IMG/VR virus record: IMGVR_UViG_3300044701_000569
Coordinates: 1 to 64,000 of that record
DNA from: a virus
Strand: one strand, 5' to 3'
DNA: 64,000 nt
The position numbers were made by a program, and so were the translations under genes. Shown here in pieces: positions 942 through 5,485 of this stretch. The notes under the pieces were generated by a model. It searched no databases and was not told the origin of the DNA. It saw nothing but the letters and a program-made list of their open reading frames with translations. Every line of letters begins with the position of its first letter. Within the stretch, counting starts at the first letter, position 1.

Positions 942-2135
942 ATGATTAATAAAGATCCATTTCGTAACAAAATACAAGAGCTTAAGGATTCAGGCAAATA
1001 TCGTGTGTTTAACGATATTCTGCGAGAACGAGGCAAGTTTCCTAAGAGCATTTGGTATTCAAAATATGCTATCAAAGAAATAGTAAATTGGTGCTCCAAT
1101 GACTATCTAGGAATGGGTCAAAACAAGTTTGTGATCGATGCTATGCACACAGCATTGGATCAAACAGGTGCTGGATCGGGTGGTACTAGAAACATAGGCG
1201 GTACCAGTCACTATCACGTAGCACTTGAAGCAGAATTGGCTTCGTTGCACAAGAAAGAACGAGCCTTACTTTATACGTCCGCCTATGTTGCAAATGAATG
1301 GACGTTGGTCGCTCTGAAACAAATCATTCCTAACATTGTGTATCTAAGTGATTCAAACAATCACGCATCCTTGATCCAGGGCATGAGACACAGTGGTGCT
1401 GAAAGGATCATATGGCAGCACAATGATATGAACGACCTAGAGCAAAAATTAAAAGAGGTGAAGGGCGTACCATGTATAGTATTTGAATCCGTGTATAGCA
1501 TGGATGGAGACGTGTCACCCATGCTCGACATTTGCAACCTCGCTGACCGTTATGGTGCAATAACCTATATTGATGAAGTTCATGCCGTAGGACTCTACGG
1601 AGAACAAGGAGGAGGCTACATTGAAAAACTAGGCCTCCAAGATCGTATAGATATTGTTAACGGTACACTGGGTAAGGCCTTTGGTGTGCAGGGCGGATAT
1701 ATTGCAGCGGATGCTGACGTTATAGACGCTGTCCGCTCTGTAGCCTCTGGCTTTATTTTTACAACATCAATGAGCCCGGTCAGTTGCGCTGGTGCTCTTG
1801 CTGCTATTAAATATCTGCGAGATCATAACGAACTGAGAGTTGAGCATCAAAGCAAAGCTGTTAGATTAAAATATCTTTTAGATAAAGCAGGTATTGAAGT
1901 TTTAGAAGCCAGCACGACTCACATCGTTCCTGTTATGGTTAGGGATGCTGTTAAGTGTAAATCAATGAGTGATAGGCTCTTAAACGAATACGGATTATAC
2001 ATACAACCTATCAACTATCCTACGGTGAGTGTAGGATCAGAACGACTTAGAATAGCGCCAACTCCACTGCACACTGACGCTATGATACATAATTTAGTTC
2101 ACGCATTAAAAGAGGTATTTGATGAACATTCGTAA
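942..2135 (+). CDS. hemA: 5-aminolevulinate synthase (ALAS)
   Basis: 397 aa, the usual ALAS core length. This PLP enzyme of the alpha-oxoamine synthase family condenses glycine and succinyl-CoA to 5-aminolevulinate, the first step of heme synthesis by the Shemin route. Visible family signatures: CSNDYLGM (about 51-58), [13 protein letters not shown] (76-88), [10 protein letters not shown] (211-220), the PLP lysine in TLGKAFG (K245), an FTTSMSP segment and a C-terminal RLRIAPTP. No obvious defect, so it should be active. The frame is open from an ATG at 927, but the ATG at 942 fits the family N-terminus better and has the TTAAATA-N5-ATG arrangement. It overlaps the DUF454 gene, so it is translated as an operon. 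KBL or BioF are alternatives, but the THIVPVMV and [19 protein letters not shown] context favours ALAS. Confidence 0.92.
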
Positions 2136-2538
2136 AGCACTGTGGTTCACCGCAGGTACAATATTTTTAGGTATAGCATTTGTTGGCATTTATGTTCCAG
2201 GACTGCCCTGGAGTACTCCTACAGTAATAGCAGCCTATTGTTTTGCTCGTTCCAGTGAACGCATGCATCGATGGCTGTACAGTCACAAGATATTTGGTCC
2301 GTTCCTCACAGGATGGACTGAAAAACGCATCTTCCCTACCAAGTTCAAATACTTTATGCTAGTGACTATGAGTTCCAGTCTTGCGCTGATGTGGTTCACC
2401 ACAGGCAATATCAAAGCTGTGCTGTGGACAGGCGGCTTTATGGCACTGGTAGCTATCTGGGGTTGGAGATATCCCGGATCAGAAGAAGAATATCAGCGCC
2501 GCAAAGACGCTGGTAAAAAGATTGCTTGGCTTAAATGA
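2122..2538 (+). CDS. YbaN/DUF454 family inner-membrane protein
   Basis: 138 aa with at least three hydrophobic segments (about 8-27, 70-88 and 93-110) and the family hallmark of an early [12 protein letters not shown] loop, a [13 protein letters not shown] segment and WRYPGS near the end. DUF454 proteins are small membrane proteins of unknown function. The ATG lies inside the last codons of hemA behind AGAGG, and the 3' end overlaps the next gene by ATGA, so all three are translationally coupled. A role in heme handling is suggested only by that coupling. Confidence 0.85.
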
Positions 2539-3104
2539 TTGTTGTATTAGAAAACGCTGTAGATAAAGAGATACAAGATACAATTGAGTCCTGTATATGT
2601 TCTTCAGAATTTCCTTGGTTCTATACTTCAGAGATTACTGGAGGTTCTAAGTTTGGAGAAACAGATCCTTACGGAGGATTTTTCAACATCGTAAGGTTTT
2701 ACGGACAAGCAAATAACCACTACAACGATCTGTTTCTTGAAATATTGCGTAGTGTTGTAAACAATACTAATTTACAAGTGTTTAATGTTGATAGAATAAG
2801 AGCAGGAATGTTTACTAGAGAAAAAGAAATAATAATACACAGTCCCCACATAGACTATGATGTTCCACACACTGCGATGCTGTACTATGTGTGTGATTCA
2901 GATGGACCTACTTTTTTCTATAACGATCAAAAAGAAATAATCAAAACTGTTGAACCAAAAAAAGGAACTGTAGTTTTATTTGATGGTTCAACATTACACT
3001 CTAGCTCTTCGCCTTGCATAAGTGCTAGAAGAATCGTCCTAAACTATAATTTTAATGTTAACTGCCCAGTTCAAAATAATATTCAACTGGTTCAATCGCA
3101 GTAA
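2535..3104 (+). CDS. 2OG-Fe(II) dioxygenase-like protein
   Basis: 189 aa, double-stranded beta-helix oxygenase pattern: HSPHIDYD supplies the HxD iron ligands (about residues 100-107), and the distal part GSTLHSSSS followed by ARRIVLNYNF supplies the second His and the Arg expected to bind 2-oxoglutarate. Last gene of the hemA operon, overlapping DUF454 by 4 nt. Its 3' end overlaps the convergent SGNH gene by 47 nt. The substrate is unknown; one of seven such proteins in this window. Confidence 0.8.
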   Translation: MIVVLENAVDKEIQDTIESCICSSEFPWFYTSEITGGSKFGETDPYGGFFNIVRFYGQANNHYNDLFLEILRSVVNNTNLQVFNVDRIRAGMFTREKEIIIHSPHIDYDVPHTAMLYYVCDSDGPTFFYNDQKEIIKTVEPKKGTVVLFDGSTLHSSSSPCISARRIVLNYNFNVNCPVQNNIQLVQSQ

Positions 3105-3780
3105 CAAAATCTTCTTTCTTCATTGAAAACTTTTCTGTCTTTAGCCATTCTTTAATTTTGTTGGCAAAAATAGAATTGTTTTTATCATTCATATGACAAG
3201 CCCGTAATTCTCTACCTCCAGGTCTTAAAGGTTTACGCTGCCACATACCTCTACTGTTTTGATATTCTATTCCGTAATGTAACATGTCAATGGTGTGTAT
3301 ATCAAACATAGAACAATTAGACCAATCTTTAACCCTACTCATAGAATAATCAAAACAAGGTATAACTAAGCTATCTGATCTAACAGTGATAATATCCTTT
3401 ACCATTAGTTCTTGTAATGAAACTTCTTGTGCTTCGTTCCTACCAAACACTATCCAATTAAACATTGATGTTAAAACATTTCTATCATTATGAGATAGAT
3501 TAGAATTTTTTAAAGTGTCTTCAATTTGATTAATACCAGGCCAAAAAGGCTGCTGTAATTGAGGTGCATAAAATCTACCCCAATTTGTAACTAAAAAAAT
3601 GCATCTATCATATAGATGATGATTCTTTTGAAAGAGGTCATAACTGTACCAAACACTTGATCCTGTGTGAGCAAAATTAGTTATAGACACATCAGGACCG
3701 TTTAACAAAGAGTACCAAGCTCGGTCTTCGTTCCACGGCTCTGTGTGTGCAAAGCTGTCACCAAATACAGCTACCTTCAT
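3058..3780 (-). CDS. SGNH/GDSL-like hydrolase-fold protein
   Basis: 240 aa. Begins MKVAVFGDSFAH, matching block I of SGNH hydrolases (GDS with the nucleophilic Ser), with a Gly/Asn-containing middle (NFAHTGSS, LVTNWGRF) and a late H-x2-D motif (CHMNDKNN) that could supply the catalytic His. Probably an esterase acting on acyl groups, perhaps of surface sugars; this is inference. The ATG shares a base with the stop of the upstream HNH gene (TAATG), so the two are coupled. Confidence 0.7.
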   Translation of the reverse strand: MKVAVFGDSFAHTEPWNEDRAWYSLLNGPDVSITNFAHTGSSVWYSYDLFQKNHHLYDRCIFLVTNWGRFYAPQLQQPFWPGINQIEDTLKNSNLSHNDRNVLTSMFNWIVFGRNEAQEVSLQELMVKDIITVRSDSLVIPCFDYSMSRVKDWSNCSMFDIHTIDMLHYGIEYQNSRGMWQRKPLRPGGRELRACHMNDKNNSIFANKIKEWLKTEKFSMKKEDFVTAIEPVEYYFELGS

Positions 3781-4292
3781 TACTTTAGCCAGGCTTCCCA
3801 ACTAGGATGACGAATATCAAATTCTAACTGTTTGCGCTTGTTAACAAGTTCATAGTAGTCAGGTTGATATGGTCGACGCAGAGGACGAGGTTCCATCTTA
3901 TTGCCCTTGCGAGCATTACAAGGACCACACGCACTAACAATATTATCCCAACAGGTAGTACCACCTCTACTTAGAGGAACTACGTGATCTAGTGTTAGGA
4001 TTGATTTAGGAAATTGAGTGTCGCAGTATTGACAGGTATTAAGGTCGCGGAGGAAAACATTAGTCTTAGAGAAGCGTGGTGTCTTCCGCCGTCGCATCAT
4101 TTCTTTCATCATAATTACCGCAGGAACTCTTGTTTCCCAGGTTGCTGAGCGAACTACCCAGTCGTCGTACCAGTCAAGAACAGTTACCTTATCTAACCAT
4201 AGATAAGTGACTGCTTCCTTCCACTGCACAGTGCTTAATGGAAGATATGATACGGGCAATCCGTCTGCGTTCAGAACTAGTGTATCTGCCAT
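3780..4292 (-). CDS. HNH endonuclease
   Basis: 170 aa. The C-terminal half holds a full HNH domain: CQYCDTQFP with a CxxC zinc pair (about 88-91), then LTLDHVVPLSRGG (the DH pair of the active site), W-DN and ACGPCNARKG with a second CxxC. The N-terminal 80 residues (LNADGLPVSYLPLSTVQW) match the usual front of this bacterial/phage HNH group. It could be a homing-type or a repair nuclease; no interrupted gene is visible nearby, so a free-standing role is more likely. Confidence 0.88.
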   Translation of the reverse strand: MADTLVLNADGLPVSYLPLSTVQWKEAVTYLWLDKVTVLDWYDDWVVRSATWETRVPAVIMMKEMMRRRKTPRFSKTNVFLRDLNTCQYCDTQFPKSILTLDHVVPLSRGGTTCWDNIVSACGPCNARKGNKMEPRPLRRPYQPDYYELVNKRKQLEFDIRHPSWEAWLK

Positions 4293-4307
4293 TTTCTACT
4301 TTCTTAC

Positions 4308-4682
4308 TCAATTGTAGTCTGTTTTAGTTACTGGTTTAAAATCAATTCCTGTGTTTAGAACACAGGCTGATCCATCTTTAAATATCAACACGTTGGAATA
4401 GGTTTTTGTTTCTGGATTTGCAAACATTATTCCAGTTCCAACCATTTCTTTAGGCTTTCCTTCGTCAATCCAATTCATGTTACTTAAACTCTGTCCTAGA
4501 GGTATCTCTCCATACTGTGCTTCTAACAGAGCTGCTACTGTAACTGCATCTGAATAACAAGGTATACTGATCAGTACGTGCTTATTCTCAAGTGATCTAG
4601 TTTGAGCTAGACCGTATCCTACTCCTACCAATCCTGCTCCTAGCACAAATAGTACTAAAGCTATTGGTTTTCTCAAGTTCAT
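4308..4682 (-). CDS. Secreted or membrane-anchored small protein
   Basis: 124 aa with an N-terminal hydrophobic segment (PIALVLFVLGAGLVGVGYG, about 6-24) preceded by Arg/Lys, so a signal anchor or signal peptide. The rest is soluble with two Cys (IPCYS, SACVL), which may form a disulfide in the periplasm. AAGG lies close to the ATG. I do not recognise the family. Confidence 0.65.
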   Translation of the reverse strand: MNLRKPIALVLFVLGAGLVGVGYGLAQTRSLENKHVLISIPCYSDAVTVAALLEAQYGEIPLGQSLSNMNWIDEGKPKEMVGTGIMFANPETKTYSNVLIFKDGSACVLNTGIDFKPVTKTDYN

Positions 4683-4694
4683 TACCTTAACCTA

Positions 4695-5219
4695 TTAAAA
4701 ATAATGTGCTACTGCCTGAGTCGCACAAAGATCTAAAGCCTTTCGCCATTGCGCACGACCAGTGTATTCAAAAATTATACTAGGTTCTGGGTCACATGTC
4801 AACCAAGTTTCTTCTTTTATTTCATCTTCTAACTGTCCAGGCATCCAACCACTAAGTCCAACACATAATCTCCAAAAATCAGGAGAATTACCATCTGCTA
4901 ACTTTTGTATCATTACTATATCAGAAGTGATAGCTAGTCCACCTGGGACCTGCATAGTATTTGATCCATACCATTCGTCTGAGTGCAACATTATTAGTGC
5001 GCCTGGATTAACAGGTCCGCCTGTATAAACATCTATGTTAGGCTGTAGAGAACCGTGTTCTTTGAGAAGGACATCTGCTTTGTGTCCTGATGTTTTATTA
5101 AGTATTAGACCAGCTACGCCTTTACTACTGTTTTCAGTAACTAAGATTACTGAGTTTGCGAATAGAGATCGCTTTGGTAAATTTGGATGTGCTATCAGCA
5201 GTTTTCCTGCTTTGACCAT
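4695..5219 (-). CDS. YqgE/AlgH (UPF0301) family protein
   Basis: 174 aa, close to the bacterial family length. Signatures: GKLLIAHPNLP at the start, VAGLILNK, VYTGGPVNPGALIMLHS and GLSGWMPGQLEDEI. AlgH/YqgE proteins are widespread single-domain bacterial proteins; AlgH was named for a regulator of alginate synthesis, but the biochemical role is unsettled. The frame is open further upstream (TTG), but the ATG at 5217-5219 has GGAG 8 nt before it and starts like the family. A phage copy is unusual and may act on host envelope regulation, which is only a guess. Confidence 0.85.
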   Translation of the reverse strand: MVKAGKLLIAHPNLPKRSLFANSVILVTENSSKGVAGLILNKTSGHKADVLLKEHGSLQPNIDVYTGGPVNPGALIMLHSDEWYGSNTMQVPGGLAITSDIVMIQKLADGNSPDFWRLCVGLSGWMPGQLEDEIKEETWLTCDPEPSIIFEYTGRAQWRKALDLCATQAVAHYF

Positions 5220-5224
5220 TTTGT

Positions 5225-5485
5225 TTAACTCCAATCTGGTAGAGGTCCACCATACTTTTTGCCTTTGATCTTCTTACCGCCAACTTTAGCACGACTGTCT
5301 TTGGTAACGCCCAGCTTATGGCTCTTGTTGCCTTCTCTGCGGCGATACCCTTGACTCTTACAGGAAGCCAACGCACTTGCACCTAATGCTGAGTTAGGTT
5401 TAGAACTTTTGCAGAGACTGCGAGTTGCCTGCCAATCTCTTAGACGTATGTCATCTTCTTCGGTAATAAAGTCAAGGGCTTTCAT
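5225..5485 (-). CDS. Small basic conserved phage protein
   Basis: 86 aa. The N-terminus is acidic (MKALDFITEEDDIRLRDWQ), the rest is strongly basic with GYRRREGNKSH and KVGGKKIKGKKYGGPLPDW, suggesting nucleic-acid binding or a structural role. No Shine-Dalgarno sequence; TAAATA on the minus strand ends exactly 5 nt before the ATG, which predicts a leaderless late mRNA. An in-frame upstream start (5500) lacks support. Unknown function. Confidence 0.65.
   Translation of the reverse strand: MKALDFITEEDDIRLRDWQATRSLCKSSKPNSALGASALASCKSQGYRRREGNKSHKLGVTKDSRAKVGGKKIKGKKYGGPLPDWS

Follow-up and report, generated by a model that had tools for sequence, protein, structure and literature searches.

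A phage 5-aminolevulinate synthase gene that overlaps a DUF454 gene, and the recurrent company of DUF454 and viral heme genes

An overlapping gene trio in a T4-like phage record

We analyzed a window of 64,000 nucleotides, which corresponds to bases 1-64000 of the 357,559-bp IMG/VR virus record IMGVR_UViG_3300044701_000569. Open reading frames (ORFs) were called mechanically, the full record was covered by searches and by two of its stretches, the viral contigs are metagenomic, and functions were inferred from sequence. The window encodes a terminase large subunit, tail sheath and tube proteins, UvsX, a DnaB-like helicase, and a T4-type single-strand binding protein, and we therefore assign it to a large, aquatic T4-like myovirus. 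IMG/VR classes the record as linear, and no direct terminal repeats were found when its start was compared with its end. A single T4 late-promoter octamer was detected in the window, which represents no excess, and promoter-like sites occurred at chance level only. The phage record also carries a CsgG-like (curli secretion) gene (PF03783, 170 bits; L196:3828-4736, − strand).

Near the left end of the window and of the record, three overlapping genes are found on the + strand. They encode a 5-aminolevulinate synthase (ALAS, vAlaS/hemA; 402 aa, positions 927 to 2135), a small membrane protein of the DUF454 (YbaN-like) family (138 aa, 2122 to 2538), and a 2OG-Fe(II) oxygenase-like protein (189 aa, 2535 to 3104). 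This + strand run opens with the ALAS gene, and the gene upstream of it (676-903) is on the − strand. An earlier note on this DNA had described the three genes as overlapping, and indeed ALAS and DUF454 share 14 bp, and DUF454 and the oxygenase share 4 bp (ATGA). The note had placed the trio at 942-3104; the three ORFs are present, but we take ALAS from 927, with ATG 942 as the next in-frame, alternative start. For DUF454, we take ATG 2122 as the start, the listed ORF opening at TTG 2119.

We then analyzed the sequence of the ALAS protein. It scored 567.5 bits with the ALAS model TIGR01821 (cut-off, 338.55), while the models for KBL, BioF, and serine palmitoyltransferase each remained under their own cut-offs, and its matches in the PDB were ALAS structures (8e-135 and 1e-123), the best KBL reaching 4e-63. 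Alignment to the Rhodobacter capsulatus enzyme revealed the PLP lysine (K250) and the conservation of D216, H219, H146, and R375, so the signature residues that the earlier note had described as kept are intact. At the succinyl-CoA site, T87 and N89 (T83 and N85 in R. capsulatus) are invariant in 41/41 viral rows, versus S/L at the same positions in seven KBL/BioF rows. A grouping with KBL/BioF had been raised as a concern, and in our phylogeny the window enzyme falls with viral ALAS, away from both. Based on model scores, tree position, and T87/N89, we rejected a KBL/BioF identity; the sequence evidence confirms ORF 927-2135 as a true 5-aminolevulinate synthase. An ALAS-like acyltransferase of KBL or BioF type that uses a different acyl-CoA would belong to the same alpha-oxoamine synthase family, and non-ALAS models do reach 324 bits on the window protein, but with only the ALAS model above its cut-off, an ALAS-type succinyl-CoA site, and a tree position away from KBL/BioF, we regard this reading as extremely improbable. 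The heme-feedback residue His342 of R. capsulatus is replaced by K343, and no Cys was found in the last 15 residues, where we sought the feedback Cys400.

The DUF454 protein matches PF04304 with 94.2 bits (cut-off, 35.1) and reaches 53.3 bits with the YbaN equivalog model NF007818, under its cut-off of 163. Two histidines, H49 and H55, are invariant in the alignment of viral DUF454 proteins, whereas only H55 is generally kept in the bacterial members that we viewed. An AlphaFold2 model of the window protein is all helical (pLDDT, 89), and no fold match to it was found in the PDB. Bacterial DUF454 is found together with haem oxygenase in T11SS loci (PMC12282271), and in Avibacterium it increases when iron is restricted (PMC7970244). 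In two bacterial loci (L101, L104), DUF454 seemed to be fused at its N terminus, but we rejected these fusions, as they proved to be upstream open-frame extensions without a domain.

The same record contains a second, overlapping pair of heme-related genes, which the earlier note missed because it lies outside the window. A heme oxygenase, HemO (record 329611-330144, − strand; PF01126, 70.9 bits), overlaps by 4 bp a bilin reductase (record 328919-329614, − strand; PF05996, 56.7 bits) that is closest to phage PcyX (PDB 5owg, 9e-86, versus about 5e-14 for PcyA). The pair is adjoined by ClpS, Hsp20, and an IMPDH/GMP-reductase-type gene, the whole PcyX-HemO-ClpS-Hsp20-IMPDH/GMP reductase block covering record positions 328919-332146 (−; L196:6919-10146). 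In a circular genome, HemO-PcyX would lie about 28 kb from ALAS, measured through the ends of the record; otherwise the two are far apart. Since the same record holds this pair, we consider the ALAS to be part of the known phage heme-to-bilin set, in its "broken cassette" form. At the related loci L148 and L158, PcyX-HemO-ClpS-Hsp20 adjoin ALAS-DUF454, in divergent orientation. In these two loci, the Hsp20 and IMPDH-type genes enclose ALAS-DUF454, as though ALAS and DUF454 had moved together.

Gene neighborhoods of DUF454

We looked into the relative positioning of ALAS and DUF454 from both sides, taking the best 80 of 438 pattern-matched IMG/VR stretches for the ALAS side. Both scans took best matches only, so the cluster fractions that follow are biased. 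Among the best matches on the ALAS side, DUF454 was located within 60 bp and on the same strand in 21 of 48 non-redundant clusters, with an overlap in 17 of these 21, and was near in 4 more. Conversely, ALAS lay within 60 bp of DUF454, in either order, in 32/57 non-redundant viral clusters among the best matches and was near in another 4; HemO-PcyX was present without ALAS in 3, and no heme gene was nearby in 18. DUF454 is thus a recurrent partner of phage ALAS and heme genes, and the coupling of the two genes singled out in the earlier note is upheld by this survey.

The order of the two genes is mostly ALAS-DUF454, with the reverse DUF454-ALAS order in L015, L021, L119, and others. DUF454-ALAS-PcyX arrangements were found in L119, L123, L125, and L126, and DUF454 accompanies HemO-PcyX or PcyX, without ALAS, in L166, L174, L175, and L178, the order being HemO-PcyX-DUF454 in L175 and L178. 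When DUF454 genes were labeled as linked or unlinked on their tree, a weak one built from 139 columns, the label changed at least eight times. We also observed one ALAS flanked on both sides by DUF454 genes, both of which overlap it (L016:5588-7606).

Genes without a known heme role also accompany viral DUF454. In the window, these are an HNH endonuclease gene (3780 to 4292, − strand; PF14279/PF01844) and an AlgH/YqgE-like (DUF179) gene (4695 to 5234, − strand; PF02622, 118.9 bits), both frequent neighbors of viral DUF454 in the survey. Across the window (3780-5234) and related loci, this company is very often seen even where ALAS is elsewhere. In L029, L065, L068, and L079, the DUF454-HNH-AlgH block is kept with ALAS about 3 to 4 kb off.

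In bacteria, none of the 14 ALAS loci that we viewed had DUF454 beside ALAS. Heme genes were not enriched among the immediate neighbors of 40 bacterial DUF454 genes, which included FecCD transporters (3×) and Rrf2 (2×); by eye, one exception was seen, a DUF454 gene near a ferrochelatase-like gene (L104).

The viral ALAS clade and the ALAS of a louse symbiont

A viral record carrying ALAS is, as the earlier note had said, of a kind already reported: Wegner et al. 2024 (PMC11480375) describe viral alaS, which occurs alone or with hemO and pcyA/X, has lost the heme-feedback residues, and in the case of phage enzyme CB_2 is active and complements an E. coli 5-ALA auxotroph. Viral alaS was also counted in a 2026 estuary study (PMC13390420). 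Viral ALAS is common, since 438 IMG/VR stretches encode relatives of the window enzyme by pattern match, although some of them may be contaminating cellular sequence. In our tree, which left out the published Wegner 2024 sequences, viral ALAS forms a single clade of 41 viral rows plus one bacterial symbiont (SH-aLRT, 100; second tree, 98/80). Because this clade stands apart from bacterial ALAS, the gene does not mark an alphaproteobacterial host, contrary to what had been proposed from the sequence; moreover, Wegner et al. propose alaS phages for both alpha- and gammaproteobacteria, with a gammaproteobacterial host for one (PMC11480375).

The symbiont is Neisseriaceae bacterium PsAf, from the sucking louse Polyplax serrata, with a genome of 1.81 Mb and a BUSCO completeness of about 86% (PMC9376444, PMC12175528). 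Its ALAS gene lies among chromosomal genes (L082:6007-7194, WNLJ01000010.1). The protein is 65% identical to the window ALAS, whereas no match listed for 289 alphaproteobacterial genomes exceeds 58%, and it is nested inside the viral clade (98/98 versus the basal viral pair L148/L158). A grouping of the viruses alone appeared in no bootstrap tree, and the AU test does not reject it (p 0.106).

Only PsAf, of 61 family members, had an ALAS over the cut-off, while glutamyl-tRNA reductase was found in 8 of the 11 family genomes checked. In the PsAf draft genome, neither glutamyl-tRNA reductase nor GSA aminomutase was found over the cut-off, and ALAD is present. The gene flanking the PsAf ALAS is absent from the related 1.6-Mb genome (empty-site comparison). 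In that 1.6-Mb Neisseriaceae genome (G020), ALAD is kept, glutamyl-tRNA reductase and ALAS are not over the cut-off, and a KBL-type frame has an internal stop. The simplest reading, although the draft is incomplete and the branch long, suggests that a phage-to-bacterium transfer of ALAS restored 5-ALA synthesis in PsAf, replacing the C5 pathway. PsAf would then be a likely example of an insect symbiont in which an essential biosynthetic pathway was rebuilt with a metabolic gene from a phage.

Proposed role of the locus and comparison with known systems

We analyzed the oxygenase as a possible third member of the set. It reaches 24.4 bits with PF13640, under the gathering cut-off of 27, and matches PHROG 274 over its full length (1.6e-39), as well as the 2OG oxygenases phrog_61 (1e-8) and phrog_81 (1e-5). 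The HxD...H iron triad and the 2OG-binding Arg are kept, in columns that are conserved across relatives. Its homologues in 108 phage records come from 106 cyanophages and 2 Pelagibacter phages, and the window protein is similar to the cyanophage PHROG 274 proteins over its full length, with up to 39% identity. Some of these cyanophage homologues are annotated "DNA endonuclease V." This name looks like a misnomer, because the window protein has retained a 2OG-oxygenase iron site (HxD...H), and the annotation is probably wrong for the cyanophage proteins.

The earlier note had coupled the iron enzyme with ALAS and DUF454, and such a specific partnership was not supported. No recognizable relative of the oxygenase was found at any of the 80 ALAS loci surveyed (best 80 of 438), nor in a pattern scan of viral contigs, and we therefore rejected it as a conserved partner. 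One could still view the three overlapping genes as one unit, with the oxygenase as an effector, modifying for example DNA or protein, and its neighbors providing iron economy. The 4-bp overlap and the sole comparable ALAS-DUF454-oxygenase run, in L148, are in line with this proposal. However, the L148 oxygenase is 28% identical to that of the window and not obviously the same gene, and the family is spread across cyanophages without ALAS and absent from the surveyed ALAS loci, so that we consider a single unit highly unlikely. We treat the oxygenase gene as a bystander of a type that is common in T4-like cyanophages.

A more serious alternative is that ALAS only boosts 5-ALA and heme for respiration of the infected cell, and that DUF454 is unrelated, part of a conserved HNH/AlgH neighborhood that came to lie beside ALAS by chance. 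The persistence of the DUF454-HNH-AlgH block at loci where ALAS is a few kilobases away agrees with it, as do the DUF454 clusters among the best matches that have no nearby heme gene. Yet inherited synteny alone is hard to reconcile with the order inversions, the two-sided DUF454 of L016, and the occurrence of DUF454 with HemO-PcyX but no ALAS, and we find this explanation rather unlikely.

We favor, with some reserve, the reading that the ALAS of the trio is the aminolevulinate arm of the phage heme-to-bilin set, with DUF454 as its membrane partner. If expressed and active during infection, this ALAS would make 5-ALA from glycine and succinyl-CoA, and would do so without the heme-binding residues by which the Rhodobacter enzyme is feedback-regulated. 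Heme synthesis from 5-ALA would be completed by the host; the phage HemO would open the heme to biliverdin, iron, and CO, and biliverdin would then be reduced by the phage PcyX in the direction of phycoerythrobilin. DUF454 would be translated from its start overlapping ALAS, possibly by co-translation. Our best guess is that DUF454 most likely acts as an inner-membrane partner of this set, handling heme, its iron, or its products. In favor of this reading are the ALAS identity with its T87/N89 pair, the replaced feedback residues, HemO-PcyX in the same record, the linkage of DUF454 to ALAS or to HemO-PcyX together with the repeated label changes on the DUF454 tree, the haem oxygenase and iron-restriction observations on bacterial DUF454, and the activity of a phage ALAS by complementation (PMC11480375). 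Several observations count against it: the 18/57 clusters (best matches) without a heme gene, the HNH/AlgH company, the 40 bacterial loci without linkage, the PDB search that returned no match, and the sharing of H55 alone with bacteria. A further one is the distance of HemO-PcyX from ALAS, about 28 kb even in a circular genome, in a record classed as linear. A bolder version, in which DUF454 is a dedicated fourth cassette gene for heme, iron, or bilins and the phage ALAS pool also donated the gene with which PsAf replaced its C5 pathway, is offered only tentatively.

Viral ALAS itself is known, and the new elements here are the overlapping HemO-PcyX of the same record, the recurrent DUF454 partner, the oxygenase not being a conserved partner, and the PsAf ALAS nested in the viral clade. 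DUF454 may be an overlooked small-membrane-protein part of the phage heme/bilin toolkit. A family that is widespread in bacteria, and raised upon iron limitation in at least one of them, is placed beside phage heme/bilin enzymes, and this position gives DUF454 a testable first role.

Viral and bacterial DUF454/YbaN proteins share the Pfam family, a size of about 115 to 140 aa, and a predicted helical membrane protein architecture, and differ in that the viral genes are linked to heme genes, a link not seen at the 40 bacterial loci viewed. Like the viral AlaS that Wegner et al. described (PMC11480375), the window enzyme is a phage ALAS of a separate viral clade that has lost the heme-feedback residues, and HemO-PcyX is elsewhere in the genome, as in the "broken cassette" arrangement reported there. 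The demonstrated activity is that of the relative CB_2, and for the window ALAS it is predicted. One difference is that the window ALAS overlaps DUF454, which the main text of that paper does not mention and which its figures or supplements may show unnamed (PMC11480375). Finally, the bilin reductase of our record resembles the phage PcyX of the marine hemO-pcyX cassette in its 5owg match and its 4-bp overlap with hemO, and the pair differs from that cassette in being apart from ALAS and flanked by ClpS, Hsp20, and an IMPDH/GMP-reductase-type gene.
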